This document shows positions 23,274-43,206 of a DNA stretch of 43,450 bases, piece after piece (the first letter of the stretch is position 1; every line of letters begins with the position of its first letter). The translations under genes and the position numbers were made by a program. The stretch is taken from contig JANYDS010000065.1 of assembly GCA_025363475.1 (NCBI GenBank), positions 1 through 43,450 of the forward strand, given 5' to 3'. The notes under the pieces are model-generated. The model saw only the letters and a list, made by a program, of their open reading frames with translations. It did no database searches and was not told the DNA's origin. The DNA comes from Terriglobia bacterium. Lineage in GTDB: Bacteria; Acidobacteriota; Terriglobia; Bryobacterales; Bryobacteraceae.

Positions 23274-25652
23274 TTGGCAAAATCGCGGGTGTTTGTAAAG
23301 TTCGTACTGGTTCCGGTGGTGGTGATACTCGCGACAGGCGCGGGAGGCATGGCCTACCTCGACTCAGCCGGAAATCGTTTCTTCGATCAGGGGAAAGAGA
23401 TCACTGGCACGCTGATCGATCTTGGTCATGCACTGAAGGCAAAAGACTTTGCCAAAATTGAAAGCTTCTATGCCGCGGACTTCCACGGCTCACAGCTAGG
23501 GATTAACACTCTTAAAGAGAGTGAAGTGCGGGACGGAATCCATAAGGTTCTGTTTTCCAGCGCTGGAGGAACAGAGGACCGCACAGCCGCGCTTGCGGAG
23601 TGGAAGACTTACCTCGATTCCTTTACCTCCATTGACGAACTCACTTTCCATATTCATCTGCTGGACACCTGGGGCTCGCGGGACAAGCTGGAAGCCACGG
23701 TCCGCTTTGAGTTGATCGGCACACCCCATGGCGCGCCTTTCAGCGGGATCGACCGGGGCTACTTCAAAGTCGGCTTTCACGGAACCGATAAAGGGCTACA
23801 GATCGTTTCAGCCACGCTGGTCTCGGGCGACCGGTCTATCAGCGACAAGCCGCAGTTTTCGGATGTCTCGGCGGAAGCGGGGATCGACTTCAAGAATCAA
23901 TATTATCCTGCGTTCCTGAACCAGAAGCTTAAGTTCGCCATGATCAAATACGGCCCCGGTGGAATCACTGCGGCCGATTACGACAACGACGGCCTTTACG
24001 ACATCATGATTCCGGATGGAGTCAGTTCCCGTTTGTTCCACAATCTGGGCAACGGCAAATTTGAAGACGTAACGGAGAAGGCGGGTCTTGCAGGGTTGGA
24101 CGGCGTGGGGGTGGCGCTTTTCGCCGACTACGACAATGATGGCCAGAAAGATCTTTTCGTCAGCCGGACCTTTAAGCCCAACCAGCTTTTCCACAACAAC
24201 GGTGATGGAACCTTTACTGATGTTACGGCGAAATCGGGCATTGGAGAAGACTGCTGCACGACTGTTGCGTCCTGGGCTGATTACGATAACGATGGTTTCC
24301 TCGACCTCTATGTAGGCCGCTATCTGGACCCGCGCACCGATATTCCCACTACGTTCTATGCTCGCAACGGCTTACCGAATCAGCTCTATCACAACAATGG
24401 TGACGGCACTTTCACTAATGTGACGGTGAAGGCTGGCGTGGGTGAAATCGGTCTTTGTCTCGGCACGGTGTTCGCTGACTACAACGACGACGGCTTCCCT
24501 GATCTTTATGTGGTGAACGATTTCGGACGAAAGACGCTTTACAAGAACAACGGCAACGGCACGTTTACAGACGTCACGGTGAAAGCCGGAACCCTGGCCT
24601 ATGGTGCCGGAATGAACGCGAGTTTTGCCGACTACAATAATGACGGCAAGATGGATATTTACGTCACCAATATCCGCTCTGATGAAGCCTGGTACGCACA
24701 GTGGCCGACAGTTGGCCGTTACATGATTAACTCCTGGCGGCAGGGTGTCTGGATTACGGACATGCCGCTCTACTTTCAGATCTTCCAGCAGTCGGGCATG
24801 AACTTCATCAAGGTTTTCCAGGACATGGCGTCCGGCAACAACCTGCTGATGAACAAGGGCGACGGCACCTTTGAAGACACCACAGTAAAGAACAACGCCA
24901 ACCCGCTGGGCTGGTTCTGGGGAGCGAGCTTTGCCGATTTCGATAACGACGGCTGGCAGGATATTTACGCAGCCAACGGCTGGGTCTACAACGATAAAGA
25001 CACAGAAATCGAACTCGACTTCCTAAACAATGTGGTCAGTGAGCAGAAGCTCTATAAGACCGGTATTCTGTTCGACCCGGCTCACTTTGGCCATACTTCG
25101 TGGCATGGCTGGGAACACAACCGCTACCTGCGCAATCGGGGAGATGGCTCGTTTGAAGAAGTGGGCCATGCTGCCGGGAATGATTTGTTGCTGAACAGTC
25201 GTGGTGTGGCTGTGGCTGATTTCTGGAATCGTGGCGTGATGGATATCGCGGTTTCGGCTTCTGACGACAAGCACAAACTGCTGAGGAACGATGTGGGAGT
25301 GGATCGTCGCTGGCTCCAGGTGGAACTGGTGGGAACCAAATCCAACCGGGATGCAGTCGGTGCCAGGGTCACCATCAAGGCCGATGGCGGCAAGTTGCAA
25401 ATGCGCGAAGTGATTCTGGGCGACGGTTACGGTTCGCAGAATTCACTGCGGCAGCACTTTGGTCTTGGCAAGGGTACTTCCGCAGAAGAGATCGTGGTCA
25501 AGTGGCCGCGTTCCGGCACGGTGCAGACGTTCAAGAATGTACCGGGCAACAGGATCATTCAGATCACCGAAGGCAGTGATCAGATTGTGGAGAAAAACTA
25601 CTCTGTTCCGGCGGCGAAGAAGCCTGCGGGTATGAAAGTCGCCGCGAAATGA
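23274..25652 (+). CDS. Membrane-anchored CRTAC1/UnbV beta-propeller protein with NTF2-like N-terminal domain
   Basis: First gene of the 15-gene operon; TTG start with GGGAGG at 23259-23264. The 792-residue protein begins with an uncleaved-looking anchor (VFVKFVLVPVVVILATGAGG). Residues about 40-190 look like an NTF2/SnoaL-type fold (LKAKDFAKIESFYAADFHG, and a late TVRFELIGTPHG strand); this part is absent from the other propellers here. Then follow many FG-GAP repeats (ADYDNDGLYDIMI, ADYDNDGQKDLFV, ADYNNDGKMDIYV, ADFDNDGWQDIYA) to about residue 670 and a C-terminal ASPIC/UnbV domain (GTKSNRDAVGARVTIKADGG, FGLGKGTSAEEIVVKWP). The stop overlaps the next ATG. Confidence 0.88.
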   Translation: MAKSRVFVKFVLVPVVVILATGAGGMAYLDSAGNRFFDQGKEITGTLIDLGHALKAKDFAKIESFYAADFHGSQLGINTLKESEVRDGIHKVLFSSAGGTEDRTAALAEWKTYLDSFTSIDELTFHIHLLDTWGSRDKLEATVRFELIGTPHGAPFSGIDRGYFKVGFHGTDKGLQIVSATLVSGDRSISDKPQFSDVSAEAGIDFKNQYYPAFLNQKLKFAMIKYGPGGITAADYDNDGLYDIMIPDGVSSRLFHNLGNGKFEDVTEKAGLAGLDGVGVALFADYDNDGQKDLFVSRTFKPNQLFHNNGDGTFTDVTAKSGIGEDCCTTVASWADYDNDGFLDLYVGRYLDPRTDIPTTFYARNGLPNQLYHNNGDGTFTNVTVKAGVGEIGLCLGTVFADYNDDGFPDLYVVNDFGRKTLYKNNGNGTFTDVTVKAGTLAYGAGMNASFADYNNDGKMDIYVTNIRSDEAWYAQWPTVGRYMINSWRQGVWITDMPLYFQIFQQSGMNFIKVFQDMASGNNLLMNKGDGTFEDTTVKNNANPLGWFWGASFADFDNDGWQDIYAANGWVYNDKDTEIELDFLNNVVSEQKLYKTGILFDPAHFGHTSWHGWEHNRYLRNRGDGSFEEVGHAAGNDLLLNSRGVAVADFWNRGVMDIAVSASDDKHKLLRNDVGVDRRWLQVELVGTKSNRDAVGARVTIKADGGKLQMREVILGDGYGSQNSLRQHFGLGKGTSAEEIVVKWPRSGTVQTFKNVPGNRIIQITEGSDQIVEKNYSVPAAKKPAGMKVAAK

Positions 25653-27364
25653 AAAGGTTAGTCATCACTGCCGGAGCTTATCTGGGTTGTATCGGAGCCG
25701 TGCTGATTGCGGCTGAGGCAACGGGCGCGCGCTGGTTTGAAGATGTGACGAAGAAGGCCGGGATTAACGCCCGGCACGGCAATCGTGTGTTCGACAATCC
25801 TTACGCGAAAATTATGGCCGGGTACACCGCGCTTGGTGCCTCCGCCTCTGTTGCCGACTATGATGGTGATGGTTTCGATGATGTCTTCGTCACTGATTCC
25901 AAGCTTGGCGGCAAAAATCATCTGTATCACAACAACGGCAACATGACGTTTACTGACGTTGCCGAAAGTGCCGGAGTGGCCAACGCCAACGACGACAAGA
26001 ATGCCGTGGCGGATTCACTCTGGTTCGATTTCAACAATGACGGGCGGCCTGATCTTCTTGTAGTGCGCTTTGGCCACAATCAGCTTTACCAAAACATGGG
26101 CAACGGAAAATTCAAAGACGTTTCCCACGCTGCCGGGATTGATGGCTATAAGAACGCCATTACGGCTATCGCATTCGACTATGATCGCGACGGCAAGCTG
26201 GATCTTTTTGTGGGTTCCTATTTTCAACCCATCAATATTTTCAATCCGGAAACGCCGCGCTTCTTCCCTGAGAGTTTTGAGACTGCGAATAATGGTGGCG
26301 GCGTTACTGTATACCACAACAACGGCAATGGGACGTTTACCGATGTTACTGACAAGACCGGCCTGCGCCTGAGCGGCTGGACCCTTGATCTTGGCCATGC
26401 TGACGCAGATAACGATGGCTGGGACGATCTGTATGTCGCGGCTGATTTCGGCACTGATCGTTTTTTTCACAACAACGGCAACGGCACCTTCACTGACATC
26501 ACCGAGACGGCTATCGGCATTGATTCCAAGAAGGGCATGAATGTCGACTGGGGCGATTTCGATAACGATGGTTTGCTCGACATCTACGTCACTAACATTA
26601 CTGACGATTACATGCGCGAAGGTAATTTCCTGTGGCATAACAACGGGAATCTGACTTTCTCTGACGTCTCGCGTGAAACCAACTCATTTGAAACCGGCTG
26701 GGGCTGGGGTGCTAAGTTTTTTGACTACGACAACGATGGCTGGCTGGATCTTTACGTAACTAACGGCTGGGTTTCCGCCGGTAAAGACAGCTATGTCCCG
26801 GACATTTTCAACATGGTGACCAAGCCGGGTATTGATTTCGCCGATGCCCGCAACTGGCCTCCCATGGGCAACAAGAGCCTTAGCGGTTATGAGAAGAAAA
26901 AGCTCTTCCATAACGAACACGGGCAACTGTTTAAGGATCAGGCTGCGCGCCACGGCGTTGATTCGCAGAAGGATGGCCGGGGCGTGGCGATCGCCGATTT
27001 CGACAATGACGGTCGGCTGGACATGTTCGTGGCGAATGCCAGCGGCGAACCGAATCTTTACCGCAACACGATGCCGGCCGGTGCTCACTGGGTCCAGTTT
27101 GCGCTGCAGGGCACAAAATCAAACCGCACCGCGATTGGCGCGCAGGTTCGTCTGACTGCGGGCGGCAGCACGCGACTTCAGTTCATCAGCGGTGGCAACA
27201 GTTTCGCCGGCCAATCGAGCAACCGGGTTCACTTTGGGCTGGGCGATGTGGCGAAAATCGATCAGATTGAAGTCCGCTGGCCGAACGGTGAAAAAGAAGT
27301 GTTCACAGGCATCGCAGTAGACAAACTTCAGAAGATTGTGGAAGGGAGCAGCAAGAGGAAATAA
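25649..27364 (+). CDS. Exported CRTAC1-type FG-GAP/ASPIC-UnbV protein (paralogue A)
   Basis: A 571-residue protein with signal peptide (about 1-22). FG-GAP repeats with acidic loops (DYDGDGFDDVFVT, DFNNDGRPDLLVV, DYDRDGKLDLFVG, DFDNDGLLDIYVT, DYDNDGWLDLYVT, DFDNDGRLDMFVA) fill residues about 55-475; an ASPIC/UnbV domain closes the protein (GTKSNRTAIGAQVRLTAGG, HFGLGDVAKIDQIEVRWPNG). It is closely similar over its whole length to the protein at 28158-29885, including the rare block GMNVDxxDxDNDGxLDIYVT, so the two arose by duplication. It shares the A of TAATG with the next gene. Confidence 0.92.
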   Translation: MKRLVITAGAYLGCIGAVLIAAEATGARWFEDVTKKAGINARHGNRVFDNPYAKIMAGYTALGASASVADYDGDGFDDVFVTDSKLGGKNHLYHNNGNMTFTDVAESAGVANANDDKNAVADSLWFDFNNDGRPDLLVVRFGHNQLYQNMGNGKFKDVSHAAGIDGYKNAITAIAFDYDRDGKLDLFVGSYFQPINIFNPETPRFFPESFETANNGGGVTVYHNNGNGTFTDVTDKTGLRLSGWTLDLGHADADNDGWDDLYVAADFGTDRFFHNNGNGTFTDITETAIGIDSKKGMNVDWGDFDNDGLLDIYVTNITDDYMREGNFLWHNNGNLTFSDVSRETNSFETGWGWGAKFFDYDNDGWLDLYVTNGWVSAGKDSYVPDIFNMVTKPGIDFADARNWPPMGNKSLSGYEKKKLFHNEHGQLFKDQAARHGVDSQKDGRGVAIADFDNDGRLDMFVANASGEPNLYRNTMPAGAHWVQFALQGTKSNRTAIGAQVRLTAGGSTRLQFISGGNSFAGQSSNRVHFGLGDVAKIDQIEVRWPNGEKEVFTGIAVDKLQKIVEGSSKRK

Positions 27365-28161
27365 TGAATTACCGGAACAGAGTATTCCTGACAGCGGTTC
27401 TGACGGCATTGCCGCTGTTGATTGTTACGCCGGCTTTTGCTGCTGATGACGAATTTGAGAAGGCTGAGCAGGCGCTCGCTTCCAAAGACTACAAGACCGC
27501 TATTCCGATCCTAGAAAAGCTGGTGGAGGCGGATCCGGACAGTTCCCGCAATGCGAGTGAGTACCGTCAGGCGATTCTGCGTCAGTCCATTGCCGGGCAT
27601 CCGAAAGAAGGTGCGGTTTTGGACTTTGACAAGGAAATTTCGTTCTTCGAAAAGCAGGCTGCCGCGCATCCGAATTCCTCTAATATCTATCTGCACTATG
27701 GCTTTGCTTATGTGGACAAGATTGCCGCTGCGGGTTCCATTACACAGGTGATTCTGGCAAATACTGCGCTGACTCAGTTCACGAAATCTCTCGAACTGAA
27801 GCCAACCTGGATTGGACTCTATACACGGGGCAACAGTTATCTATATTGGCCCAGAATTTTTGGCCGTACTTCGCTGGGCGTCTCCGACCTTGAAAGAGCG
27901 TATGCGATGCAGAAGGCCGAGCCGAAGAAAAGTTTCCACGTCCGTGTTTACATCTCGCTGGGTGATGGCTACTGGAAGTCGGACAACATTGATAAAGCTG
28001 TTGCCGTCTGGCGGGAGGGCGTTACGCAGTTCCCCAACAGCCAGCCTCTGAAAGACCGGCTTTCGCGGCAGGGCGAAGATCTGCGGGCGTATATTGATAA
28101 CGTTTTGGATCCGGGCCGCCGGGTTGATACCGACCTGCGCGAACTCTGGGGGCAGCCGTGA
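27364..28161 (+). CDS. Exported TPR-repeat protein
   Basis: A 265-residue periplasmic protein with a strong signal peptide (about 1-26, cleavage after PAFA). The mature part consists of tetratricopeptide-like helical pairs, for example AEQALASKDYKTAIPILEKL, LTQFTKSLELKPTWIGLYTR and IDKAVAVWREGVTQFPNS. TPR proteins of this size typically hold protein complexes together, so it may organise the neighbouring beta-propeller proteins in the periplasm. It lies exactly between two duplicated CRTAC1 genes and overlaps both, with TAATG at the start and GTGA at the end. Confidence 0.85.
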   Translation: MNYRNRVFLTAVLTALPLLIVTPAFAADDEFEKAEQALASKDYKTAIPILEKLVEADPDSSRNASEYRQAILRQSIAGHPKEGAVLDFDKEISFFEKQAAAHPNSSNIYLHYGFAYVDKIAAAGSITQVILANTALTQFTKSLELKPTWIGLYTRGNSYLYWPRIFGRTSLGVSDLERAYAMQKAEPKKSFHVRVYISLGDGYWKSDNIDKAVAVWREGVTQFPNSQPLKDRLSRQGEDLRAYIDNVLDPGRRVDTDLRELWGQP

Positions 28162-29885
28162 AGTTTCTAGCCAACAAATTCGTACTGGCGGCTCTGTTGC
28201 TCGGCGTCCCGGCTGCAGTGATTGCGTTTGAAGGAATTGAAGCGAAGATCAGGTTCACCGATATTGCCGCGAAGGCTGGCGTGCAGACGCAGCATCACAC
28301 CCGCAAGTACAACGGCAAGAGCGCGGAAGTGCTGGGGATGTTTACTTCGGGCGGTTCTTCTGCCGCAGTAGGTGACTTTGACGGTGATGGTCTGGACGAC
28401 ATTTTTGTAACTGATTCCGACAAGGGCAAGTTGAACCACCTTTTCCATAACAATGGCAACATGACATTCACTGATGTTGCGGTGGCTGCCGGTGTGGCGG
28501 GCGGGAATGATCCGCTTTCCATCGTGGCGGATGCGCTGTGGTTTGATTACGACAATGATGGCAGGCAGGATCTCTTAGTTGCGCGGTTCGGCACGCCGAT
28601 TTTGTATCACAACGAGGGCGGCGGGAAGTTTAAGGACGTTTCGAAAGGCTCCGGTTTCAACAAATTCGGTAACACAATTGCGGTGATCGCCTTTGATTAC
28701 GACAATGACGGTTTGCTGGATGTGATGCTGGGCAACTATTTCAAGCCGGAGAATTTGCTCGAACTAAAAGACCCGCATGTGTTGCCGAACGACCTCGATA
28801 ACGCGATCAACGGCGGCGGCGTTACGCTGTGGCACAACCAGGGCAAGGGCGTTTTCGTCGATGTGACGGTGAAGGCCGGCTTTGGTAAACACACCGGCTG
28901 GACCCTCGACATCGGGCATGGCGATTACGATAACGACGGCTTCCAGGATATCTATCTGGCCTGCGATTACGGGACTGACCGGATCTTCTTTAATAACGGC
29001 GATGGCACGTTTACTGATACCACGGAAAAGTCGATTGGCTTTGATACTCGCAAAGGTATGAACGTCGATGTGGCTGATTACGATAACGACGGGTATCTGG
29101 ATATTTACGTCACCAATATCACTGATGAATACATGAAAGAGTGCAACATGATGTGGCACAACAATCATGACCGCACGTTCACGGATGTTTCGCGAGAAAC
29201 CAATACCTGTGAAACTTTGTGGGGCTGGTCAGCGAAGTTCGGTGACTTTGATAATGACGGCTGGCCGGATCTGTTTGTGGTAAACGGTCTGCGTTCCGCA
29301 GGTAAAGAAAATTACATTCCGGTGCTGGTAAATCTGATCACGCAGCCGGGGGTTGATTTCACTGATGCGCGGCTCTGGCCGAACATCGGCAACATGACCT
29401 GGAGCGGTTACCAGAAGAAGAAAATGTTCCGCAATCTGGGCGGCCAGGCGTTCAAGGAAATCTCCGCTGAAGCGGGCGTTGATAACGACAAAGACGGCCG
29501 CGGCATTGCCATGGGCGACTTTGATAACGATGGCAGGCTTGACCTTTTTCAGGCGAATGCTGATCAGCCGGCGATCTTCTATCGGGGTGTGACTGAAGGC
29601 GGGGGCAACTGGATTCAGTTCAAACTGACCGGGACGAAATCGAACAGGGATGCGGTTGGTGCAAGGATCACTTTGACCGCTGGCGGCTTGAAGCAGATGC
29701 ATGAGATTAACGGTGCCAATGGCTATGCGGGTCAGAGCATGAGCCGTGCGCATTTTGGCATTGGCAAGGCGGCGACAGTTGATTCGGTGGAGATTCGCTG
29801 GCCCAACGGACTTATTGAAAAGGTCAGCGGCGTGGCAGTCAATAAGATCAACAAAGTGACCGAAGGAAAGGGTCTGCAGCGCTAA
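28158..29885 (+). CDS. Exported CRTAC1-type FG-GAP/ASPIC-UnbV protein (paralogue B)
   Basis: A 575-residue GTG-started protein with signal peptide (about 1-24). The repeat loops include DFDGDGLDDIFVT, DYDNDGRQDLLVA, DYDNDGLLDVMLG, DYDNDGFQDIYLA, DYDNDGYLDIYVT, DFDNDGWPDLFVV and DFDNDGRLDLFQA, followed by an ASPIC/UnbV domain (GTKSNRDAVGARITLTAGG, HFGIGKAATVDSVEIRWPNG). It matches paralogue A block for block (SAGKxxY, GYxKKKxF, DVSRETN). A difference is two Cys residues in the region MKECNMMWHN / RETNTCETLWGW, not present in A, which could form a disulfide. Overlaps both neighbours. Confidence 0.92.
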   Translation: MKFLANKFVLAALLLGVPAAVIAFEGIEAKIRFTDIAAKAGVQTQHHTRKYNGKSAEVLGMFTSGGSSAAVGDFDGDGLDDIFVTDSDKGKLNHLFHNNGNMTFTDVAVAAGVAGGNDPLSIVADALWFDYDNDGRQDLLVARFGTPILYHNEGGGKFKDVSKGSGFNKFGNTIAVIAFDYDNDGLLDVMLGNYFKPENLLELKDPHVLPNDLDNAINGGGVTLWHNQGKGVFVDVTVKAGFGKHTGWTLDIGHGDYDNDGFQDIYLACDYGTDRIFFNNGDGTFTDTTEKSIGFDTRKGMNVDVADYDNDGYLDIYVTNITDEYMKECNMMWHNNHDRTFTDVSRETNTCETLWGWSAKFGDFDNDGWPDLFVVNGLRSAGKENYIPVLVNLITQPGVDFTDARLWPNIGNMTWSGYQKKKMFRNLGGQAFKEISAEAGVDNDKDGRGIAMGDFDNDGRLDLFQANADQPAIFYRGVTEGGGNWIQFKLTGTKSNRDAVGARITLTAGGLKQMHEINGANGYAGQSMSRAHFGIGKAATVDSVEIRWPNGLIEKVSGVAVNKINKVTEGKGLQR

Positions 29886-32800
29886 TGAAGACATTCGTCT
29901 TACTCGCCGGACTGGTCGGCATTTCACTGTTTGCTTTTCAAACGAGTGATTTACCACAACAGGAGAAGCTCGCACAGGCACGCAATCTGGGCAAGGCATT
30001 TTACGAAAATCCGACCACTCAGACACAGGCACTGGACGAATTCAAAAAAGCGTTCGACTTAAATCCGGAGTCAGCCCGCGAACGGGTGAACTACGGATTG
30101 GCGTTGCTTCATGCTGCCAAAACGGCAGAAGGTATTGCGGAACTGGAAAAGGCCCAGAAGCAGGACCCGACAATTCCACACACGTGGTTTAACCTGGGTA
30201 TCGCTTATAAGAAAGACTCGCAGTATGAGAAAGCGATCGAGCAGTTTGAGGGCATTGTAAAGCTGGTTCCGAATGAGCCCATTTCGCATTACAATCTGGG
30301 CGTTCTTTATAAGCTGACTGGCAAGACCGAAGACGCGCTGCGCGAGTTTGAACTTACGGCGAAACTGAATCCGGCGCTGGCTGGTCCGCACTTCCAGTTG
30401 TTCAATACTTATCGTGGTTCCGGTCGTCCGGCGGATGCGGCGCGGGAACAGGCTGTTTTCCAGGAAATCAAGAAACGGCAGGCAGGTGCGGCTGTTCCGG
30501 AGGATTTGGAATGGAGTTTCTTTTCCGAGATTTATGACATGCCTGAGGCTGCCAGTGCGGCTGATGTCGATGCCGGCAAGCCGGTGAAGCTGACCGCCCG
30601 TAAACTCGGCGACGGGTTTGAAGGCGTGACCACTTCCGATGTTGATGGCGACGGCAATCCTGAGATCGTGGCATGGTCTGCCGCTGGCGTGAAGGTGTTC
30701 AAGAATGGTGTGGCTGCGGCTGTCGAGTGTGGGTTGGGAGGGGTGAGAGATGTTGTGTCCATCACCTCAGCTGACTTCAACAATGACGCTCTGGCCGATT
30801 TGACGATCATCACCAAAACCGGCGCGGAATTATGGATTAACCGCAAGGGCAAGTTTGAGAAGTCCCCGATTGTGATTCCTGAAGGTCATTACGCGAAAGC
30901 GGTATGGCTGGATTATGACCATGATTACGACCTGGATCTCTTCCTGCTCGGTGAGAAGTCTCTGCTGCTGCGGAACAATGGTGCCGCCGGTTTCAGTGAC
31001 GAAACGAAGACATTCCCGTTTGTGCTTGCACGTGCGACCGACGGTACCTTGTTTGACGCGGTGCCCGACACCGATGGCATGGATCTGGTTGTTACTTACG
31101 CCGATCACGTGGGCGTTCTCTACGTAGACAAACTTGGGGGCAAGTATGAAGCCCAGGACCTCGCACCAGTTCCAGCAGGCGTAAAGTCCATACATGCAAT
31201 GGACCTGAATAATGACGCGGTCACTGATTTGCTGATTGCAAATGTTCCGGTCTACCACCGCCAGGGCACATTTCAAGCCGCAGCGCCGTTCGCCAGCGTT
31301 TTGGCAGGTATCGATTTTTCTAATTCCGGGCAGTTGTCCAGCGCAGCAGGAGCCGATGCCGTTTCGTATGCAGCGGTTGATTTCGACGGTGACGGAAAGA
31401 CCGATGTCGCAGCGGTAGAGCATGATGGTTCGCTGGTGCTGCTGCACAATGAAACCGAAACAACTAATGGCTGGCTGCGTGTTTCACTCACCGGTGTCAA
31501 GAATGTTAAACTCGCGTTTGGCTCGAAAGTCGAAGTCAAAGCGGGTACTTTGTACCAGAAGCGCACTTACTATGGACAACCGCTGGTCTTTGGGCTGCGC
31601 GGGTACAAGGAAGCTGAGACAGTCCGTATCACCTGGCCCAACGGCTTAATTCAGAACGAAGTCCATCAGGCTGCGGGGAAGGCTTACAGCTATAAAGAAG
31701 CGCAACGCCTTTCGGGCTCCTGCCCTATGATTTTCACGTGGAACGGTAAGGGCTTTCAGTTCCTGACCGACGTACTCGGCGTTGCGCCACTTGGTGCCAG
31801 TGCCGGTGATGGCACTTACTTCCCGGTAGATCATGACGAGTACGTGCAGATTCCCGGCGAAGCAATGGTACCGAAAGATGGCAAATACGAAATCCGCATT
31901 ACTGAAGAGCTTCGTGAGGTTTCGTATCTTGACCGCATTCAACTCATTGCAGTCGATCATCCGGCGACAGCTGCCATTTACACAAACGATAAGTTCAAGT
32001 CGCCGCCCTTTCCTGAGTTTCGGCTTTTTGGCGTGACCAGGCCTGTTTCGCCTGTGGCTGCACATGACGATCTGGGCAACGATGTGCTGGCGAAGGTTCA
32101 GAAGAAAGACGGCCAGTATCCCGATGCGTTCTCCCGCGACTATACGGGTGTGGCTTCGCTGCATCACCTTGATCTCGACTTCGGCAAGGCCGCAGCGGCG
32201 AACCGTGCGGTCCTGATTCTAAACGGTTGGGTGGATTGGGCTGATGGCAGCACGTTTCTGGGTCAGTCACGCGAATCCAAAGAGGGCCTGATTATGCCGT
32301 ACTTACAAGTTAAAGACGCGCAGGGCCAGTGGAAAACGGTGATTGCAGATATGGGCATTCCCGCCGGTAAACCGAAGACGATCAGTGTTGACCTGAGCGG
32401 CAAATTTCTTTCGGCTTCGCGTGAGGTTCGAATCGTTACCAACATGTGCGTTTATTGGGATGAAATCTTCCTGAGTGAAGACACTTCTACCCCCGCGACC
32501 ACCCTCACCAAACTCGACGCGGCCAGTGCAGACCTGCACTTCCGGGGCTTTTCTAAACCAGTGATTCATCCCGAGCGCCGGCAGCCCGAAAACTTTCTCT
32601 ATAACGAAACCTCGCCGGTATCATCATGGAACCCGACACCGGGGCGCTATACCCGCTTCGGCGATGTCAGAACATTACTCGCGAAGACTGATGACGAAAT
32701 GACTATCATGGGCGCGGGCGATGAACTTACTTTGCAGTTCGATATGAGCCGCTTCCCCGCCCTCCGTTCGGGCTGGAAACGTGATTTTCTGCTCCTTGTG

Positions 32801-33004: not shown

Positions 33005-33015
33005 GAGGAAGACAA

Positions 33016-33297: not shown

Positions 33298-33303
33298 ACC
33301 CTT

Positions 33304-34521: not shown

Positions 34522-34524
34522 GCC

Positions 34525-35733: not shown

Positions 35734-36926
35734 AAGAAGTAGTGGCGATTGAAATTGGGCCGGAAGACCTGCTGCCGCGTCTTAAAGACAACGGTTACGA
35801 TACCGAGCGTGTATCGAAACGCCGCGCGTGGGTAGAACGCAGAACCGGTGCCGACCTTACTCATGCGGGCAAAGGTTCGTGGGACCCGGAACTGATGCGT
35901 GGCAACATCGAGAACCCTATTGGAGTTACTCAGATTCCGCTGGGTGTCGCCGGCCCGGTATTGATTCATGGGCAGAATGCGCATGGGCTGTTCTATGTCC
36001 CGATGGCCACTACAGAAGGCGCGCTGATTCGCAGTTATGAACGTGGCATGGTGGCGCTGACGAAAGCCGGTGGCGTGCAAACCGCGCTCATCAGCGATGA
36101 GAATCAGACGGCCCCCACTTTCTTTTTTGAGAACGTGACCCTTGCCAGCGTCTTCCCTGCGTGGATTGAAGAGAATCTTCCGGCCATTCGTGAAGTGGTC
36201 GCGGGGACTACCAGTCACGGCAAACTTACCGGCGCGACCTGTTATCACGTGGGGCGTCAGGTCATCGTCAATTTCGGTTTCAGCACCGGTGACGCGCAGG
36301 GCATGAATATGATTGTGCGCGCGACCGATGCCGTCTGTCATTGGATTCAGGATCATTACCCGATTGGCAGTTACTTTCTGTTTAGCGGTATGTGTTCGGA
36401 AAAGCGCGCCAGCGGTTTTGTTCATACGCGCGGTAAGGGCAAGCGTGTTACGGCAGGGGCGCTGCTGCCGCATGATGTGATGCGGCTCTATCTGCATACC
36501 AACGCTGCTGATCTTTTCAAGGTCTGGCAATCCACTGTGGTGGGGCATCTGCAGGCCGGTTCCATTGGTTATAACGCTCATGCGGCCAATGGCCTTACGG
36601 CAATCTTTATCGCCACCGGGCAGGATGTCGCCAACGTTGTAAATTCGGCGTCTGCCATCACGATTTTCGAACCACATCCGGAAGGGCTGTACGTCAGTAC
36701 GACGCTGACCGCGCTTTCCATCGCTACGGTGGGCGGCGGCACCAACCTGCCTTCCCAGCGCGAAGCTCTGAGCATGATGGATTGTCATGGGAGAGGTAAA
36801 GCGCCGAAGCTGGCAGAGGTGATTGCCGCTACAATTTTGGGCGGAGAAATCTCAATGGGGGCGGCTATTGCCTCCCGCGAATTTGTTGGCGCGCATGAGC
36901 GTTATGGAAGGAACCGACCCGCATGA
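35721..36926 (+). CDS. HMG-CoA reductase homologue (class I-like) in a PKS operon
   Basis: HMG-CoA reductases reduce a thioester to a primary alcohol with two NADPH. This 401-residue protein has the ENPIGVTQIPLGVAGPV block, catalytic Glu99 in ATTEGALIRS, the dinucleotide loop DAQGMNM (DAMGMNM in class I), Lys228 in CSEKRASG, Asp302 in FIATGQD, TVGGGTNLPSQ and His392 in VGAHERYGRN. All four catalytic residues are therefore present. Differences from class I enzymes: one Gly fewer in GSIGYNAHAAN, and loss of PSIEIG before TVGGGT (here TALSIA). No mevalonate-pathway gene is nearby. A role as reductase of an acyl thioester made by the KS/CLF is plausible inference. Confidence 0.85.
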   Translation: MEEVEEVVAIEIGPEDLLPRLKDNGYDTERVSKRRAWVERRTGADLTHAGKGSWDPELMRGNIENPIGVTQIPLGVAGPVLIHGQNAHGLFYVPMATTEGALIRSYERGMVALTKAGGVQTALISDENQTAPTFFFENVTLASVFPAWIEENLPAIREVVAGTTSHGKLTGATCYHVGRQVIVNFGFSTGDAQGMNMIVRATDAVCHWIQDHYPIGSYFLFSGMCSEKRASGFVHTRGKGKRVTAGALLPHDVMRLYLHTNAADLFKVWQSTVVGHLQAGSIGYNAHAANGLTAIFIATGQDVANVVNSASAITIFEPHPEGLYVSTTLTALSIATVGGGTNLPSQREALSMMDCHGRGKAPKLAEVIAATILGGEISMGAAIASREFVGAHERYGRNRPA

Positions 36927-37648
36927 ATGTCGCGCTCATTACCGGAGGCAGCCGTGGCATCGGGCAGGCCATGGTGGAAGAATTTGTTGCCGCCGGATAC
37001 GCCGTTGCCTTCACCTATAGTTCCAATGTGCAGGCTGCGGAAGCGCTGGAAGGTGCGATCGCATTTAAGGGTGGGCGCGCTGTCGGGTTTCAGGCTGAGG
37101 TCCGTGATTTCGCCCGGGCGGGTGAAGTGATCAAAGCGGCGCAGGAACAGCTGGGGCCGATCACCACACTGATCAACAACGCGGGCATTAAGAAAGACGG
37201 CCCGCTGATGCGTATGGACCCGTCGGCCTGGCAGGATGTTATTGACACCAACCTGACCGGTACGTTTAACTACTCCCGCGCGCTCATTGGCGAACTGGTG
37301 CGGAGGGGTGGCTCCATTATCAATGTCACGAGCACCAGCGGAGTAGTCGGGATGGCGGGTCAAACTAACTACAGTGCGTCGAAGGCGGGCATTATTGGCT
37401 TCACCCGTGCGCTGGCGAAAGAGGTCGTACGTTTTGACGTTCGCGTCAACGCCATCGCGCCGGGCTTTATCGAAACAGATATGACGGCCGGTCTGGATGA
37501 AGCGGTTCGGAAGAAGCTTTACGCACAGATCCCGATGGGGCAACCCGGCAGTGCGCGTGATGTGGCGAAACTTGCGGTTTACCTTGCCAGTGAGGATGCA
37601 AAATACGTTACCGGCCAGGTTTGGAATATGGACGGCGGCTTAACTTAA
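36923..37648 (+). CDS. FabG-type 3-oxoacyl-ACP reductase (SDR)
   Basis: A 241-residue classical short-chain dehydrogenase/reductase. It has the NADPH loop TGGSRGIG, the NNAG motif (85-88), catalytic Ser137 in NVTSTSGVVG, and Tyr150/Lys154 in YSASK, with the C-terminal VTGQVWNMDGGLT typical of FabG. It would reduce beta-ketoacyl-ACP formed by the neighbouring ketosynthase to the 3-hydroxy form. Overlaps the HMGR homologue gene by 4 bp (ATGA). No dehydratase or enoyl reductase gene was seen in the operon, so full reduction would need enzymes from primary metabolism. Confidence 0.93.
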   Translation: MNVALITGGSRGIGQAMVEEFVAAGYAVAFTYSSNVQAAEALEGAIAFKGGRAVGFQAEVRDFARAGEVIKAAQEQLGPITTLINNAGIKKDGPLMRMDPSAWQDVIDTNLTGTFNYSRALIGELVRRGGSIINVTSTSGVVGMAGQTNYSASKAGIIGFTRALAKEVVRFDVRVNAIAPGFIETDMTAGLDEAVRKKLYAQIPMGQPGSARDVAKLAVYLASEDAKYVTGQVWNMDGGLT

Positions 37649-37660
37649 ACGAGAGGGCGC

Positions 37661-39229
37661 TTGAAGCAGAAATCCCATCTCATCTTCGGACGCGAGTACC
37701 CGCAGCAATACGATGCTATCGTCATCGGCGCGGGTGTGGGTGGATTGTTCTGTGCGAATATTCTGGCGCGCGGCGGCATGAAAGTGCTGCTGCTGGAGCG
37801 TCATTATATGCTGGGCGGTTTCTGCTCGACATTCCGCCGCAAGGGTTTTATCTTCGACGCTGCAACGCACTTTTATCCCCTGCTGGGCAACCCCTCCACT
37901 ATGACGGGGAAACTGCTGAAGGAGCTGGAAATCCCCACGGAATGGGTCAAAATGGACCCAGTCGATCAGTTCCATCTTCCCGGTATGCCACCCTTCGCGG
38001 TGCCTTCTGAATTCGGGCCTTATGTGCAGCGTCTCAAAGAGTGGTTCCCGGATGAAGCGGCGAATGTGGATGCCTACTTTGCAGAACTCAAACAGGCTTA
38101 CATGTATGGCCTGCTCTATTACTTCAAGGGCGTTTCCAATGATCAGGTGGAGCGTCTGGAAAAGTTCACCATGACGGGCAAGCTGGATCAGCATTTTCGT
38201 GATCCGCGCCTCAAGGTGATCATGATGGCCGATGCGCCGCACTGGGGTTCGACACCAGACAAAACATCTTACGTTTTCGACGCGATGTTGCGGCTGTCTT
38301 ACTTCCTGGGCAATTACTATCCCAAGGGCAGTTCGCAGAAGTTTGCTGACGATCTGGGTAAAGCTTTCACTGACCTTGGTGGCAAGATTCTGAAGTGCGC
38401 GGAGGTGGAACAGATCACGACGGACCACGGCAAAGCTAAAGGCGTGCGCATCCGTACGATCTCGAAGCGCGATGCTGAGGTGTTTGAATTCGATGCGCCG
38501 GTGGTTGTCTCCAATGCCGATGCGCTCCACACCTATCGCGACATGCTGGGCGAACAGCATTGCGGCCCGTGGATGATTCAGCATCTGGAATCGCTCAAAC
38601 CGAGTTTTGCCTGCTTCCTGACTCACATTGGTTTGCGCGGTATGGACCCGGAGAAACTATCCGCAGCTGAGGGTTATTACTGGAAGACGCTCGATACGGC
38701 GAACATCATTCGGGACGTTTTTAAGATTTTCATTCCCACACATTTTGATGCTTCAATTGCGCCACCGGGATGCCAGACGCTGATCGTGCAGCGGCCCTCG
38801 CCGGTGCGTGTGGATGAAGTGACGGACTGGGCGGCACATAAAGCCGAAGTTGAAGCCACCACGATGGACCGGCTGCGGCATTTGCTGCCTGGCATTGATG
38901 ACCATATCGTGGTGAAGACCAGTGCCAGTGCGCACACGTCCTGGCGTTTCACCAATAATTTGAACGGCGCTATGCTGGGCTGGGAAATGTCTCCGGAACA
39001 ACTGGGGGCGCGGCGACTGCCGATTTATACGCCGGTGGATAACGTGTTCCTCACCGGGCACTGGACCCAACCCGGCGGCGGCATTACGCCCGTGATTGTT
39101 TCCGCTCAGCAGGTCGCCAAAACCATTCTGACCGGACGCGATCAGGGCCGTGAAATGGCTGCGCAGTACTTCCAGTTCAACGCCGGATCACCTGCAATCA
39201 TGCCTAAGGAGGCATCAGTTTCCCAATGA
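37661..39229 (+). CDS. CrtI/CrtISO-type FAD-dependent oxidoreductase
   Basis: A 522-residue flavoprotein of the phytoene desaturase/carotenoid isomerase family. The FAD-binding motif is AIVIGAGVGGLFCANILARG (about 19-38) with LLLERHYMLGGFCSTF following; the C-terminal FAD motif is NVFLTGHWTQPGGGITPVI. TTG start, with GAGAGGG at 37650-37656. Relatives desaturate or isomerise long polyenes, and homologues are also known in non-carotenoid lipid clusters. No phytoene synthase or prenyl transferase gene is near, so a carotenoid substrate is unlikely; desaturation or isomerisation of the polyketide or acyl chain is a fair inference. The stop overlaps the TetR ATG. Confidence 0.88.
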   Translation: MKQKSHLIFGREYPQQYDAIVIGAGVGGLFCANILARGGMKVLLLERHYMLGGFCSTFRRKGFIFDAATHFYPLLGNPSTMTGKLLKELEIPTEWVKMDPVDQFHLPGMPPFAVPSEFGPYVQRLKEWFPDEAANVDAYFAELKQAYMYGLLYYFKGVSNDQVERLEKFTMTGKLDQHFRDPRLKVIMMADAPHWGSTPDKTSYVFDAMLRLSYFLGNYYPKGSSQKFADDLGKAFTDLGGKILKCAEVEQITTDHGKAKGVRIRTISKRDAEVFEFDAPVVVSNADALHTYRDMLGEQHCGPWMIQHLESLKPSFACFLTHIGLRGMDPEKLSAAEGYYWKTLDTANIIRDVFKIFIPTHFDASIAPPGCQTLIVQRPSPVRVDEVTDWAAHKAEVEATTMDRLRHLLPGIDDHIVVKTSASAHTSWRFTNNLNGAMLGWEMSPEQLGARRLPIYTPVDNVFLTGHWTQPGGGITPVIVSAQQVAKTILTGRDQGREMAAQYFQFNAGSPAIMPKEASVSQ

Positions 39230-39831
39230 AGAATATGGATGCGGATCAGGTCCGTATTGTACTCGATACCGCCATGCAGCTCTTCTCGAAAGTTGAGTTG
39301 CGTGAGATTACGCTGGACAAGCTGACCAAGGCCTCAGGCGTACCGGCGTTTGACATTATTCGCCATTTTCAGTCGAGTGAAAATATTCTCAAAGCGGTGC
39401 TGGAGCGCGAACTGGAATTGATGGCCGCAGCCGCGCAGGCGCCGGAACTGCGCATGCCGGGGGAAACGCTGGGTGATGAACTCCACGTCCTGGCGGGCGT
39501 CATTCTCGACCAGTACCGCAAACGAATTCCCTTCCTGGGTAAATTACTGCCGGAAGCGATGACTGATCCCAAGGTTGGGGCCCTTTTTTACAGTACTTTC
39601 ATTGTGCAGGGCCGTTTGCTGTTCACTGAGTTTCTGCGTGTTCGCAGAGAATTCGGTGAATTGCGCGATGAAGTGGATATCGAAGCCGCAGCCGCTATTT
39701 TTCTGGCCTCGCTAACGGGTATTCTGTTGATGCATGACCTGTTCGGGGGCAAGCAAGTTGAGGTTTTAGACGACGAACGGGTGCTGAAACAGATGTGTGA
39801 CACATTTTTGCACGGTATTACCCGAAAATAG
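39226..39831 (+). CDS. TetR-family transcriptional regulator
   Basis: A 201-residue regulator with an N-terminal helix-turn-helix (about 10-55: AMQLFSKVELREITLDKLTK, then VPAFDIIRHFQSSENIL) and a helical ligand-binding C-terminal domain (about 75-200) typical of TetR proteins. The recognition helix (VPAFDIIRHF) departs from the common VSxxTLYxYF. It sits inside the biosynthetic operon, overlapping the FAD enzyme gene, and probably senses a pathway intermediate or acyl-CoA and represses the operon. A candidate operator is the GTGAA-N8-TTCAC inverted repeat at 23202-23219. Confidence 0.88.
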   Translation: MKNMDADQVRIVLDTAMQLFSKVELREITLDKLTKASGVPAFDIIRHFQSSENILKAVLERELELMAAAAQAPELRMPGETLGDELHVLAGVILDQYRKRIPFLGKLLPEAMTDPKVGALFYSTFIVQGRLLFTEFLRVRREFGELRDEVDIEAAAAIFLASLTGILLMHDLFGGKQVEVLDDERVLKQMCDTFLHGITRK

Positions 39832-39846
39832 CGTTACAATCGACCA

Positions 39847-41418
39847 ATGAAAATCGCACTCTGCGGCTTTACGGGGCCAGTGGCACTGGCGGCGCGGGCG
39901 GAACTGATCAGTCGGGGGCATGATGTCCAGACTTCCCCTGCTGGCGCTGAGTGTGTCATTTTTTCCCCAGGCAAATCCGAAGAACTGGAAACTCTCGTAA
40001 ATCAGCCGGGACTACGGAGGCTGGTGGTCCGCAGCCACGCTTACGCGTACGGTGCGAATCCAAAAAATCCGGGATTGATGGATGAATCCCGTATCTCTCT
40101 TTTGCCTCCGACAGACCCGGCGCAGCGCTGGCTCAAAGCGGAAGAGATCGTGGCGCGGCATCCGAACTATGCATCCGTCCGCCTGTCAAATGTCCTGGCC
40201 CCGGAAGAAGGGGACTCGATAGTCACCAAGCTGACAAAGGGCATTACCAGAACGATTACCGGCCGCAATCCCAACGTCCAGTTCATTAGCGTTGCGGATG
40301 CTGCGCGGGCGCTGGTGGCTGCTGCTGAATCGAACGCGACCGGCATCTTTAATGCCTCAGGGTCTGGTGCCATTCCGCTGGTGAAAGCCTTCCGCGCTGC
40401 CCGTACCCGACAGGTGGGTGTTCCGTCCGCCAGGAATCTCGAATCACTCGAATACAACTGGACTGTCTCAGGTGACCGGGCGGCCCGCGAACTTGGCTTC
40501 ATCCCCGAGCAATCCACCGTCGAAGCCCTGAAAGAATTTTTGCTCAAGAAGCCAGGGGCACAACCCGGTGAACTGCTTTCCGCCTATGACGACTGGGGCC
40601 TCGACATCCCTTATATCCGCAACTGGGGAACCTGGTTCGCCTTTCTGACCAAGGTTTACTGGCGCATCGAAACTGAAGGAATGGACCACATCCCGTCGGA
40701 AGGCAAGGGTCTTTTTATCGCCAACCATCGCGGCTTCATGCCTCTCGATGCGGTAATGCATCTGTCACTGCTCTTCACGCTCCGCAACCGTGTGCCGCGT
40801 TTTCTCATCGCACACACCCTGCTGCGCACTCCAGGTATGATGAATTTCCTGACGAAGCTTGGCGGCGTTGTCGCCAGTCAGGAGAACGCGAAAAAGCTGT
40901 TCGACCAGGGCGCGTTGGTGGGCATGTTCCCGGAAGGCATTAGGGGCACCTTTTCGCCCTATAAAACTACTTACCGGTTGCGTAATTTTTCCAAGGGCGG
41001 CTTCGCCCGCATGGCAGTGGAAAACCAGTCGCCGATCTATCCGGCAGCGGTTGTCGGACACGCCGAAATTTTCCCGATCATCGGCCGCATTGATTCCAGT
41101 TTTGTGGTGAAGGAACTGGGCTGGCCTTATCTTCCTATCGCTCCGCTGTTCCCGCTGGCTCCAATTCCTCTGCCGTCGAAGTGGCACGTCCGGATGCTGA
41201 AACCGGTATCGCTACAGGGCCTGACGGTAGCCGACGCAGAGAACAACCGACTCATGAAGAGCTTCAGCGAATACGTGCAAAGTATTGTCCAGGCCAACAT
41301 TGACGACATGCTGCCGCGCCGCACCAGCATTTTCTGGGGAAACAAAGTTCTTAACGGTCAGGAGCCTGCTGTTCCTCCATTCCAGCCTAAAGCGAGACAG
41401 GCAAGTGCCCATGAGTAA
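39847..41418 (+). CDS. Rossmann epimerase-like domain fused to a PlsC-type acyltransferase
   Basis: A 523-residue two-domain protein. Residues about 1-235 resemble an extended SDR/epimerase (MKIALCGFTGPVALAARAEL, FISVADAARALVAAAE), but the glycine motif is degenerate and no YxxxK is seen (QRWLK at the expected place), so this half may only bind ligand. Residues about 255-500 are a lysophospholipid/glycerol acyltransferase-like domain with His294 and Asp301 in ANHRGFMPLDA and Glu363 in MFPEGIRGTF. It could transfer the operon's acyl product to a glycerol, sugar or other hydroxyl acceptor. The final ATGAGTAA overlaps the next gene by 8 bp. Confidence 0.85.
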   Translation: MKIALCGFTGPVALAARAELISRGHDVQTSPAGAECVIFSPGKSEELETLVNQPGLRRLVVRSHAYAYGANPKNPGLMDESRISLLPPTDPAQRWLKAEEIVARHPNYASVRLSNVLAPEEGDSIVTKLTKGITRTITGRNPNVQFISVADAARALVAAAESNATGIFNASGSGAIPLVKAFRAARTRQVGVPSARNLESLEYNWTVSGDRAARELGFIPEQSTVEALKEFLLKKPGAQPGELLSAYDDWGLDIPYIRNWGTWFAFLTKVYWRIETEGMDHIPSEGKGLFIANHRGFMPLDAVMHLSLLFTLRNRVPRFLIAHTLLRTPGMMNFLTKLGGVVASQENAKKLFDQGALVGMFPEGIRGTFSPYKTTYRLRNFSKGGFARMAVENQSPIYPAAVVGHAEIFPIIGRIDSSFVVKELGWPYLPIAPLFPLAPIPLPSKWHVRMLKPVSLQGLTVADAENNRLMKSFSEYVQSIVQANIDDMLPRRTSIFWGNKVLNGQEPAVPPFQPKARQASAHE

Positions 41419-42502
41419 GGCTGAACCCTGGAGCTTTGACATACGCTCCGGTTTCGGTGCAGCAGTGGGACTGATGCAGCGCTCCGCAGAGATGATGTCA
41501 GGAATCCTGCCGGGCCATGAATGGAATGAGACGGGCAACAAACTGGAATGCTTCCGTCTGTTCGCCTGGGTAGATCAGGAACTTGGTTTCCCAAAGTCGC
41601 ACCTTCAACCCCTCGATCAACTCGCAGCCCGTGCGCTCAAGCTGAATGACTTCCGCTCGATCTGGGCACTCGAAGGTGTGGCCAATTACTACACATCCGC
41701 CTGTCTAAGCGCCGGTGCGGGACAACCAATGAAAGGAATGTTGTCCACCGGAGCCGGTGCCAGTCTCCCTGCGAAGACGCTCGTGTCGATGCATGCCGGC
41801 ATGGGTACGGCGCTCTCGCGCGCGATTCTCGCGGCACTTGGTGACAAGCCATCAAAGGCTGCCCTGCGCGACGCCGTGACGCGTTTCTTTGACCAGTGCC
41901 GTGACAACGCCCGAGAAGGCTGGTACGAGAGTGCCATCGAACCACTGGGGCTTTCCGTTCGGACGATGCACCCGCACCTGTCGCGCGTGGTCAGCGATGT
42001 GATTGGAGATATCGACCCTGCCGCTCGTCTGCTTTTCTGGCATGGAGTGGGCCGGTCACTCTATTTCGTCCCCACCAACTTCGTCAGCTTTGGCTCCTCT
42101 CATGAACGCGCTTTACAGACCGCCATTCGCGAGGCTCCGGGAATGGAAGAACGCCGCAATGCGGTAGCTGGACTTGTGTGGGCTGTGACCCTGGTAAACC
42201 TCAGAAATCCGGGCGTTCTGCGCAATCTGATCCGGGAGTGCGAGAGAATTCACATGCCGGAAGCGGTCATGAATGGCATCACTTCGGCTCTGATGATCTG
42301 GAAATTCATGGTGCCTGGCGATTCGTCCCTGCTCTCTTTTTATTCCCGCCCTGCCGGTGGTAATGCATCGGACGCCGTGCGCTGGAACCGGTTCGTCATG
42401 CGCGCGGCTTCGAAGGCGTTCGCAGAAGATTTCCCGCCGCTGCTTGAGAGTGGCTCAGTTTCAAAGCTGTTCGCATTCGGCCCTGCATCCAAAACATCAT
42501 GA
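41411..42502 (+). CDS. DUF1702-like protein (enediyne-cassette family)
   Basis: The ATG at 41411 is chosen because it overlaps the previous stop (ATGAGTAA), and the upstream extension to 41285 lies inside the acyltransferase gene. The 363-residue product has no signal peptide. It resembles DUF1702 proteins by memory: ALEGVANYYTSACL against the family EGAAM block, HAGMGTALSR, and FWHGVGRSLYFVPTNF against the family DQGxGRxLWFV block, followed by an Ala/Gly-rich helix (AVAGLVWAVTLVN). DUF1702 genes are best known from enediyne cassettes, also rich in UnbV proteins. The assignment rests on motif resemblance only. Function is unknown; cytoplasmic or membrane-associated. Overlaps the DinB-like gene (ATGA). 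Confidence 0.55.
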   Translation: MSKAEPWSFDIRSGFGAAVGLMQRSAEMMSGILPGHEWNETGNKLECFRLFAWVDQELGFPKSHLQPLDQLAARALKLNDFRSIWALEGVANYYTSACLSAGAGQPMKGMLSTGAGASLPAKTLVSMHAGMGTALSRAILAALGDKPSKAALRDAVTRFFDQCRDNAREGWYESAIEPLGLSVRTMHPHLSRVVSDVIGDIDPAARLLFWHGVGRSLYFVPTNFVSFGSSHERALQTAIREAPGMEERRNAVAGLVWAVTLVNLRNPGVLRNLIRECERIHMPEAVMNGITSALMIWKFMVPGDSSLLSFYSRPAGGNASDAVRWNRFVMRAASKAFAEDFPPLLESGSVSKLFAFGPASKTS

Positions 42503-43206
42503 GTAACGATTTCACTAAATCCATCGACAGCGCTATTTCCCGTGTCGTACAAAGTCTGGTTTCGCCGGTCACTACACAGACCGTGGACTGGAACAAGCTT
42601 GTGCAGGCGTTGCGCGCCATCCGCGAGCGTTCCATTGCACAGTTGCAGAATCTGAGTCAGGAGCAGGCAGACTTCGCGCCGGCAAAAGGCACCTGGTCCA
42701 TCGCACAGAATGCTGACCACGTGCTGCTGGGCGAAAAGCTCTACCGGACCCAGATCGGCAGGCTTATGGATCTGGCCCGCGCCGGCGGCAAAACCACACT
42801 TGAAATTGGTTTCGATGAAATCAATCCGTCACTCGCCTTCATCCCCAATGAGGTGATGGCGCTGATGGCGGCACCTCTTACATTCGTTAACAGGTTTGTG
42901 CCTGGCGTAGTTCGCGAAGCCATCATTCGCTATCCGCTCATCCCTGCCACAACACCTTCCGTGATGGAACCGGCGAAGACGCGGCCCATCGCTGAACTCG
43001 TCGAGCACATGGCGACGTCTATCGCAGCGACAGAAGAATTATTCCGTGACCGTGTTCCGGCAAACCTCAGGATTGTTTCGATGAGCCACCCGCTGTTGGG
43101 GAACAACAACGTGCAAGATATCTTCGGGCTGATGTGTGCCCACGAGGCACGTCATCAGGACACAATAAAAAAGATTTCGGAGAACCGCCTGTTTCCAGCG
43201 AGGTAA
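42499..43206 (+). CDS. DinB-like (DinB_2) four-helix protein
   Basis: A 235-residue protein of the DinB/YfiT superfamily, whose members bind a divalent metal with three His residues and often act as thiol-dependent transferases (bacillithiol, mycothiol, glutathione). The first His is in GTWSIAQNADHVLLGE and the other two in CAHEARHQDTI, so the triad is complete. An extra N-terminal segment of about 25 residues precedes the domain. Last gene of the operon, overlapping the DUF1702-like gene by 4 bp. It could handle a reactive intermediate or add a small thiol, but this is a guess. Confidence 0.85.
   Translation: MSNDFTKSIDSAISRVVQSLVSPVTTQTVDWNKLVQALRAIRERSIAQLQNLSQEQADFAPAKGTWSIAQNADHVLLGEKLYRTQIGRLMDLARAGGKTTLEIGFDEINPSLAFIPNEVMALMAAPLTFVNRFVPGVVREAIIRYPLIPATTPSVMEPAKTRPIAELVEHMATSIAATEELFRDRVPANLRIVSMSHPLLGNNNVQDIFGLMCAHEARHQDTIKKISENRLFPAR

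Follow-up and report, generated by a model that had tools for sequence, protein, structure and literature searches.

A recurrent acidobacterial gene cluster joining UnbV propeller proteins to a type II synthase core and an HMG-CoA-reductase-fold protein

Clusters for the type II fatty-acid synthesis of ladderanes or polyunsaturated lipids have been proposed in anammox bacteria and in Desulfotalea. In passages of the papers concerned, the candidate ladderane cluster of Kuenenia (kuste3603-3608) comprises genes for an acyl carrier protein (ACP), a FabF, a second FabF without both histidines, a phytoene-desaturase-like protein, FabZ and a radical S-adenosylmethionine (SAM) enzyme (PMC4790861, PMC2649909), and sections of two other papers mention ladderane-labelled clusters in non-anammox bacteria (PMC7298704, PMC11968836). 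Here we describe a cluster with part of this gene set in a Terriglobia bacterium. The window that we analysed, a stretch of 43,450 nucleotides (contig JANYDS010000065.1), carries a block of 15 genes (positions 23274-43206) that encodes tetratricopeptide repeat (TPR) and UnbV propeller proteins followed by an ACP, a ketosynthase (KS), a chain-length-factor-like partner (CLF), a homologue of 3-hydroxy-3-methylglutaryl coenzyme A (HMG-CoA) reductase (HMGR), a ketoreductase (KR), a CrtI-family flavoprotein, a TetR-family regulator, a Rossmann-acyltransferase fusion, a protein here called D1702 and a DinB-like protein.

The window contains the anammox-type set of ACP, FabF, His-less FabF and phytoene-desaturase-like protein. 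However, the Kuenenia and Desulfotalea clusters have FabZ and a radical SAM enzyme, neither of which domain searches found among the window's cluster genes, whereas the window has HMGR, the acyltransferase fusion, UnbV and TetR. Type II polyene synthases (ishigamide, aryl polyenes) also combine a KS with a CLF-like partner and an ACP; the window's cluster differs from them in having no dehydratase and in the presence of HMGR and UnbV. The likeness to carotenoid enzymes lies in the CrtI-family flavoprotein and in an RPE65-family member found in sister loci and on contig C6 of the window's genome, but the window's cluster has no phytoene synthase and the scores fall under curated cut-offs; the CrtI-family protein reaches 174 bits with TIGR02734, a phytoene desaturase subfamily whose cut-off is 238 bits. 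With enediyne polyketide synthase (PKS) cassettes the cluster shares UnbV proteins and probably a member of the DUF1702 superfamily, although D1702 would be only distantly related and type II genes stand in the window's cluster, where the iterative type I PKS of those cassettes does not occur. A preliminary description of this DNA held that no pathway with this gene set had been described. Our literature searches found none, although the KS, CLF, ACP and CrtI core does have the anammox precedent outlined in parts of PMC4790861 and PMC2649909.

Conservation of the cluster and of its synthase core

All 15 open reading frames (ORFs) are present and co-oriented on the plus strand, as first reported, with successive spacings from the first propeller gene (g1) to the DinB-like gene of -4, -1, -4, -1, +11, +6, +3, -13, -4, +12, -4, +15, -8 and -4 bp and a maximum gap of 15 bp. 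On this layout the block is a predicted operon. Pfam and NCBIfam searches bore out the original gene identities, returning ACP, KS, KS-like CLF, HMG-CoA_red, short-chain dehydrogenase/reductase (SDR)/KR, amine-oxidase/CrtI family, TetR, acyltransferase and DinB_2. The contig stops at 43450, and the cluster is seen only as far as there on its 3' side.

We scanned genome contigs with the HMGR homologue as query, so that relatives were picked by HMGR homology and not by UnbV. The scan gave 41 loci (numbered L); the outlier L049 was dropped and 40, from 38 metagenome-assembled genomes (MAGs), were used. Presence counts for ACP, KS, CLF, CrtI, the Rossmann-acyltransferase and UnbV cover only loci with sufficient flank. 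ACP, KS and CLF each adjoin HMGR in 27 of 29 loci, CrtI does so in 28 of 30 and the Rossmann-acyltransferase in 23 of 26, and UnbV propeller genes lie at most 10 kb from HMGR in 15 of 19. These co-occurrence counts indicate that the ACP-KS-CLF-HMGR core and the UnbV genes travel together. The UnbV genes stand mostly before ACP in the window's clade and mostly after CrtI in the other clade (L010-L013 also have one after CrtI, and L029 has one before ACP), and since the link is kept in two different gene orders it survives rearrangement. The propeller and enzyme halves of the block are thus conserved together, and at the level of gene neighbourhood synteny confirms the link between exported propellers and synthase. 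As a control, eight loci of 14.7-19 kb that surround other HMGR homologues were examined, and none has ACP, KS, CLF, CrtI or UnbV.

The remaining genes are less constant. Over all 40 loci, including those with short flanks, KR occurs in 17, a UbiB-type kinase in 12, TetR in 10, an RPE65-family gene in 7, an FAD enzyme in 6, D1702 in 6 and DinB in 4. The relatives are mostly Acidobacteriota, with one MAG each from Zixiibacteriota (L030, left flank too short for ACP, KS and CLF), Poribacteria (L031), Opitutales (L044, no KS) and Latescibacterota (L048, a short contig); these phyla are hard to culture.

UnbV genes are widespread, being found in 65 of 149 Acidobacteriota genomes, two of which have at least 37 matches. 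The chance of meeting one per 20 kb is about 5% at the density in the window's genome and about 14% at a density of at least 37 per 5.3 Mb. Linkage in 15 of 19 loci would then arise by chance with a probability of 2e-16 or, at the 14% derived from a lower-bound density, 3e-10, figures for relatives that are not independent of each other. The window's genome has 11 UnbV matches, five of them inside about 9 kb (8.8 kb) here, and when 11 matches were placed at random five fell within 8.8 kb in 0 of 20,000 trials.

The synthase core consists of the ACP (33016-33297), the KS (33304-34521) and the CLF (34525-35733), assigned by Pfam (the KS also by NCBIfam), by alignment and by matches in the PDB. 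The phosphopantetheine serine of the ACP, in a DSL motif in the window, is kept in 28 of 28 sequences, and the Cys-His-His triad of the KS in all 29 that cover the three sites (one more is partial). Both catalytic histidines are lost in all 31 CLFs where covered; the CLF cysteine is kept in the window's clade except in L022 and is lost in the other clade. The window thus holds the minimal type II PKS set of an ACP with its serine, a KS with Cys-His-His and a partner without the histidine pair, although that partner retains its cysteine. In the PDB, KS and CLF find their best matches in separate chains of a single entry, 9S5H_B (512 bits, 56% identity) and 9S5H_C (246 bits, 37% identity), respectively. 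For the KS the ishigamide KS (6KXD, 376 bits) and then FabF come next, and actinorhodin KS scores 257 bits; by structure 6KXD comes first, tied with FabF. In the KS/CLF phylogeny that had been proposed as a check (FastTree), the KS clade has 9S5H_B as its sister and the CLFs have 9S5H_C. The ACP is best matched by 7QV0_D, 7AUF_A, 7ZM7_O and 9S5I_E.

The HMGR homologue and a proposed lipid pathway

The HMGR homologue (35721-36926) scores 362 bits against Pfam HMG-CoA_red, and its catalytic residues Glu559, Lys691, Asp767 and His866 are kept wherever covered in the window and the 40 relatives. Its HMG-binding residues are altered. Another residue stands at Lys735 in 40 of 40 sequences, and Glu takes the place of Asp690 in 41 of 41. 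Seven positions ahead of the catalytic Lys, 41 of 41 have Phe (or a loop shorter by one residue). Arg590 has been lost in 20 of 41, among them the window, whose residues at Arg590, Lys735 and Asp690 are Ala, Ser and Glu. A search of the window's genome for HMG-CoA synthase gave no PF01154 match. Because substrate-binding residues are lost and the genome lacks HMG-CoA synthase, the protein is probably not a mevalonate enzyme but a reductase that releases some other acyl chain from its thioester. FastTree recovers this clade as monophyletic at a modest support of 0.71, and three sequences taken as canonical form no clade. Another divergent HMGR clade of Acidobacteriota (L062-L080 and L083-L088; 25 entries with repeats, 42-47% identity, monophyletic at 0.999) has Thr and Val/Ile at the HMG-binding sites and is sometimes found beside a UbiB kinase, outside this cluster type.

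Read from these gene neighbourhoods, the operon may encode a single conserved pathway in which a KS/CLF-made lipid chain, unusual and probably polyene-like, is released by the HMGR-fold enzyme, acylated, and modified or bound by exported UnbV proteins, a reading whose chances we put as even. KS and CLF would build an acyl chain of fixed length on the ACP, drawing on the cluster's KR (36923-37648, FabG type by Pfam and NCBIfam) or on a cellular FabG and on a dehydratase encoded elsewhere. Oxidation by the CrtI-type enzyme (37661-39229) would add or extend conjugated double bonds, and the HMGR-fold enzyme would use NAD(P)H to reduce the thioester, freeing the chain as an alcohol or aldehyde. The fusion protein (39847-41418), which joins a PlsC-type acyltransferase recognized by Pfam to an N-terminal, SDR-like Rossmann part recognized by eye, would acylate the product, and the exported propellers would modify or bind the lipid in the periplasm. 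Judged by homology, the chemistry is most economically read as the making of an unsaturated acyl or polyketide lipid that the HMGR homologue releases. The cluster would then represent a recurrent lipid or polyketide pathway, undescribed in our literature searches, that puts the HMG-CoA reductase fold to a new use. As a whole, the earlier interpretation of the locus is partly supported.

A second locus may act on the same product. The window's genome has a single RPE65-family (carotenoid-oxygenase-family) gene, which is preceded on contig C6 by two UnbV genes and an FAD enzyme, the last assigned by 48% identity only, and this set would cut or oxidise the unsaturated chain. Both enzyme types adjoin the core cluster in some relatives, the FAD enzyme with a weak tryptophan-halogenase/lycopene-cyclase signal; in two of them, L035 and L044, there is also an aldehyde dehydrogenase gene after these neighbours. 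Four histidines are conserved in 8 of 8 RPE65-family oxygenases. The locus (L100, G000:C6) spans 6386-14422, and its other strand carries an NMT1-type ABC transporter and more UnbV and TPR-cytochrome genes.

Several observations weigh against a single polyene-like pathway. Domain searches found no dehydratase among the window's cluster genes and KR is missing from 23 of 40 relatives, so a polyene product would need borrowed enzymes. The CrtI-like proteins of the anammox cluster made no lycopene in E. coli, according to part of PMC4790861. The RPE65-family protein tested, that of L035, ranks nearest to lignostilbene rather than carotenoid dioxygenases in NCBIfam and far below the cut-off, which makes a polyene substrate for this oxygenase a guess. 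The neighbourhood varies as well: UnbV genes are missing beside the core in 4 of 19 relatives, in two of the 15 linked loci (L044 and L047) they lie 7-9 kb from HMGR and are not adjacent to it, and two of 29 loci (L036 and L044) have HMGR, CrtI and the acyltransferase without ACP, KS and CLF. Within the HMGR homologues, Arg590 is kept in 21 of 41, and among 18 further entries, several of them duplicated, one gene (L059/L095) keeps Lys735.

Four other explanations draw on the same evidence. The retained catalytic residues and the Pfam score would suit an ordinary mevalonate enzyme, but this is barely tenable given the replaced HMG-pocket residues, the genome without HMG-CoA synthase and the existence of other HMGR groups in the phylum, of which the member L089 adjoins GHMP- and amino-acid-kinase-family genes. 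The propeller genes might instead form an independent periplasmic system that shares only neighbourhood and regulator with the synthase; the size of the UnbV family and the four relatives without UnbV beside the core are in line with this, whereas linkage well above the chance expectation, kept in two gene orders, makes it quite unlikely.

The nature of the product could also differ from that proposed. If the cluster made not a conjugated polyene but a membrane lipid that is ladderane-like, or polyunsaturated without conjugation, this would account for the core shared with the anammox cluster as set out in parts of PMC4790861 and PMC2649909, and for the KS and CLF identities to the 9S5H chains, if 9S5H is of that kind. 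The lack of FabZ and radical SAM genes in the window's cluster and the carotenoid-oxygenase-family enzyme in sister loci, which suggests oxygen-dependent alkene chemistry, count against this product, and we regard it as unlikely, though not remotely so. A conventional aromatic type II polyketide pathway would explain why KS, CLF, ACP and KR occur together, and there is a family near L025, L028 and L037 whose L037 member matches DUF4440/SnoaL-like domains. We consider such a pathway very unlikely: the window's cluster has no aromatase/cyclase, its KS is nearer to those of 9S5H and ishigamide than to actinorhodin KS, and a lipid-type acyltransferase is conserved.

UnbV propellers and a conserved in-frame UGA

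The first five genes of the block had been described as encoding exported TPR/FG-GAP/ASPIC proteins. Pfam finds FG-GAP/ASPIC domains in g1 (23274-25652), g2 (25649-27364), g4 (28158-29885) and g5 (29885-33004), but g3 (27364-28161) has TPR only. By eye the N-termini of g2-g5 resemble signal peptides, whereas that of g1 is a membrane anchor. The g5 protein combines TPR with a degenerate UnbV propeller, its ASPIC domain falling just below the whole-protein cut-off in one search and above it in another.

UnbV genes after CrtI in the second clade end at a TGA stop beyond which an in-frame run leads into the ASPIC domain. All 13 such pairs share the same frame, a single TGA and the motif DL-UGA-LP. 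With the read-through frames there are 15 HMGR-linked UGA sites in 10 loci, all in one alignment column (two each in L026, L028, L031, L037 and L040; one each in L027, L032, L036, L038 and L039). The g1 protein of the window belongs to the type whose relatives carry UGA but has Glu in this column; the window's own propellers have no UGA and are not selenoproteins. We scanned the phylum with one UGA-type protein, scoring two candidates per genome, and found matches in 52 of 396 genomes at 59 places, of which 32 have one TGA, 27 have none and none has TAA or TAG. For comparison, five interrupted HMGR matches have TAG (three), TAA (one) and TGA (one). All 32 TGAs fall at query columns 600-602 within the same motif; further UGA-type loci are L120-L122, L128, L130-L133, L136, L139, L146 and L150-L169.

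The sequence downstream of the TGA behaves as coding. Across 24 group-1 frames, mean identity is 49.7% downstream and 56.4% upstream of the TGA (249 pairs), and downstream differences favour third codon positions (3567, 2947 and 6823 by position, in pairs 55-90% identical). The sister-cluster UnbV genes therefore show coding constraint beyond a single conserved in-frame TGA, as selenoprotein genes do. All 10 genomes that have an HMGR-linked TGA gene carry a selenocysteine tRNA (tRNA-Sec) scoring at least 60 bits, as do 14 of 20 others, including the window's genome; at Rfam's cut-off of 47 bits 25 of 30 genomes have one, with weak matches also in all 14 controls. SelA, which the window's genome has, matches below 1e-50 in 28 of 29 TGA genomes versus 11 of 23 without TGA (Fisher p 6e-5), and at 1e-3 in 29 and 14.

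All 20 unique genes of group 1 have a SECIS-like hairpin, GNGC-GGUC-GCNC, at +20 to +31. It covaries: one of its pairs is C-G in 14 and U-A in 6 and is never broken, and the other three are invariant. In group 2 the stem differs, and GGUC comes three bases earlier in 5 of the 7 unique genes; six of the seven form all six pairs counting G-U, and L136 breaks two. In a set of 20 fetched loci GGUC is present in 18, L156 and L158 being the exceptions. The fdhF element of E. coli has the same loop at a similar distance. Two results speak against selenocysteine: folding z-scores of the hairpin equal those of control windows, with no excess folding energy, and Cys never stands at the UGA site in the homologues examined, which have E, Y, G, A, S, N, D, other residues or gaps.

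The UGA-containing UnbV proteins of the sister clusters are thus a candidate new selenoprotein family, resembling known bacterial selenoproteins in the UGA, the downstream hairpin, SelA and tRNA-Sec, and differing from them in being FG-GAP/UnbV propellers. Literature searches found no paper joining selenocysteine with UnbV, ASPIC or FG-GAP. In the main text of a 2026 review on prokaryotic selenoproteins the terms FG-GAP, VCBS, propeller, UnbV, CRTAC and Acidobacteri do not occur (PMC13188914), and portions of a 2006 survey give three families in Acidobacteria and contain no FG-GAP or propeller terms (PMC1794560). The apparent selenocysteine suggests that UnbV propellers are working enzymes, not passive scaffolds. 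The in-frame UGA directs attention to a single residue and type of chemistry and makes UnbV function a testable question of enzymology. A further hint of redox partnership comes from part of another study, in which CRTAC1-family FG-GAP genes flank hydrazine-synthase-like genes outside anammox bacteria (PMC12758564).

D1702, regulators and neighbouring genes

The preliminary description called the penultimate protein DUF1702-like. Pfam does not detect D1702, and there is no PF08012 match in the window's genome at E<=10; the start is also moved from 41285 to the ATG at 41411, so that the gene spans 41411-42502. Profile-profile comparison supports the likeness itself: eight D1702 sequences compared by hhalign with eight DUF1702 sequences from Acidobacteriota gave 93% probability (E 3e-7), against at most 0.9% for D1702 and 1.2% for DUF1702 with 17 control families. 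By this comparison D1702 is probably a distant relative of the DUF1702 proteins of enediyne clusters.

Of 396 Acidobacteriota genomes, 11 have a PF08012 match, and of seven loci fetched all have a KS-type match and six have UnbV within about 10 kb. Two are enediyne-like, L114 (3060-13350) with a 1921-aa KS-AT-KR-DH PKS, UnbV and DUF1702, and L117 (10435-19132) with UnbV, DUF1702 and an ORF of 1926 aa that matches KS. In L113 and L119 the matches are to type II KS/CLF/KR/ACP. UnbV and DUF1702 thus accompany several kinds of synthase, and the parallel originally drawn between UnbV and enediyne genes holds at the family level. Both families are, to our knowledge, unexplained components of enediyne clusters, and their tie to a second synthase outside enediyne biosynthesis offers the type II cluster as a place to study what they do. 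More tentatively, the exported UnbV proteins may be redox enzymes of the periplasm, and in sister operons selenoenzymes, whose substrates are unsaturated acyl or polyketide chains; with the DUF1702 superfamily they may form a portable module common to this HMGR-released type II pathway and enediyne biosynthesis.

The TetR-family regulator lies at 39226-39831 (Pfam), and the DinB-like four-helix protein at 42499-43206 matches DinB_2. Upstream, three plus-strand genes with mutual 4-bp overlaps (19476-23187) end 86 bp before g1: a sensor histidine kinase (19476-20903; HisKA_3, HATPase_c), a LuxR-type response regulator (20900-21529; Response_reg, GerE) and g0, an exported FG-GAP/UnbV propeller by domain match (21526-23187). 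The kinase family adjoins the cluster in L026, L028 and L037, and related regulators stand upstream of ACP in L026, L028, L032, L037, L039 and L041; the two-component system and g0 probably belong to the cluster. Near the operon, the minus strand at 15744-17663 encodes a TPR and multihaem cytochrome c-like protein, and TPR-cytochrome genes lie upstream of ACP in 7 of 40 relatives.

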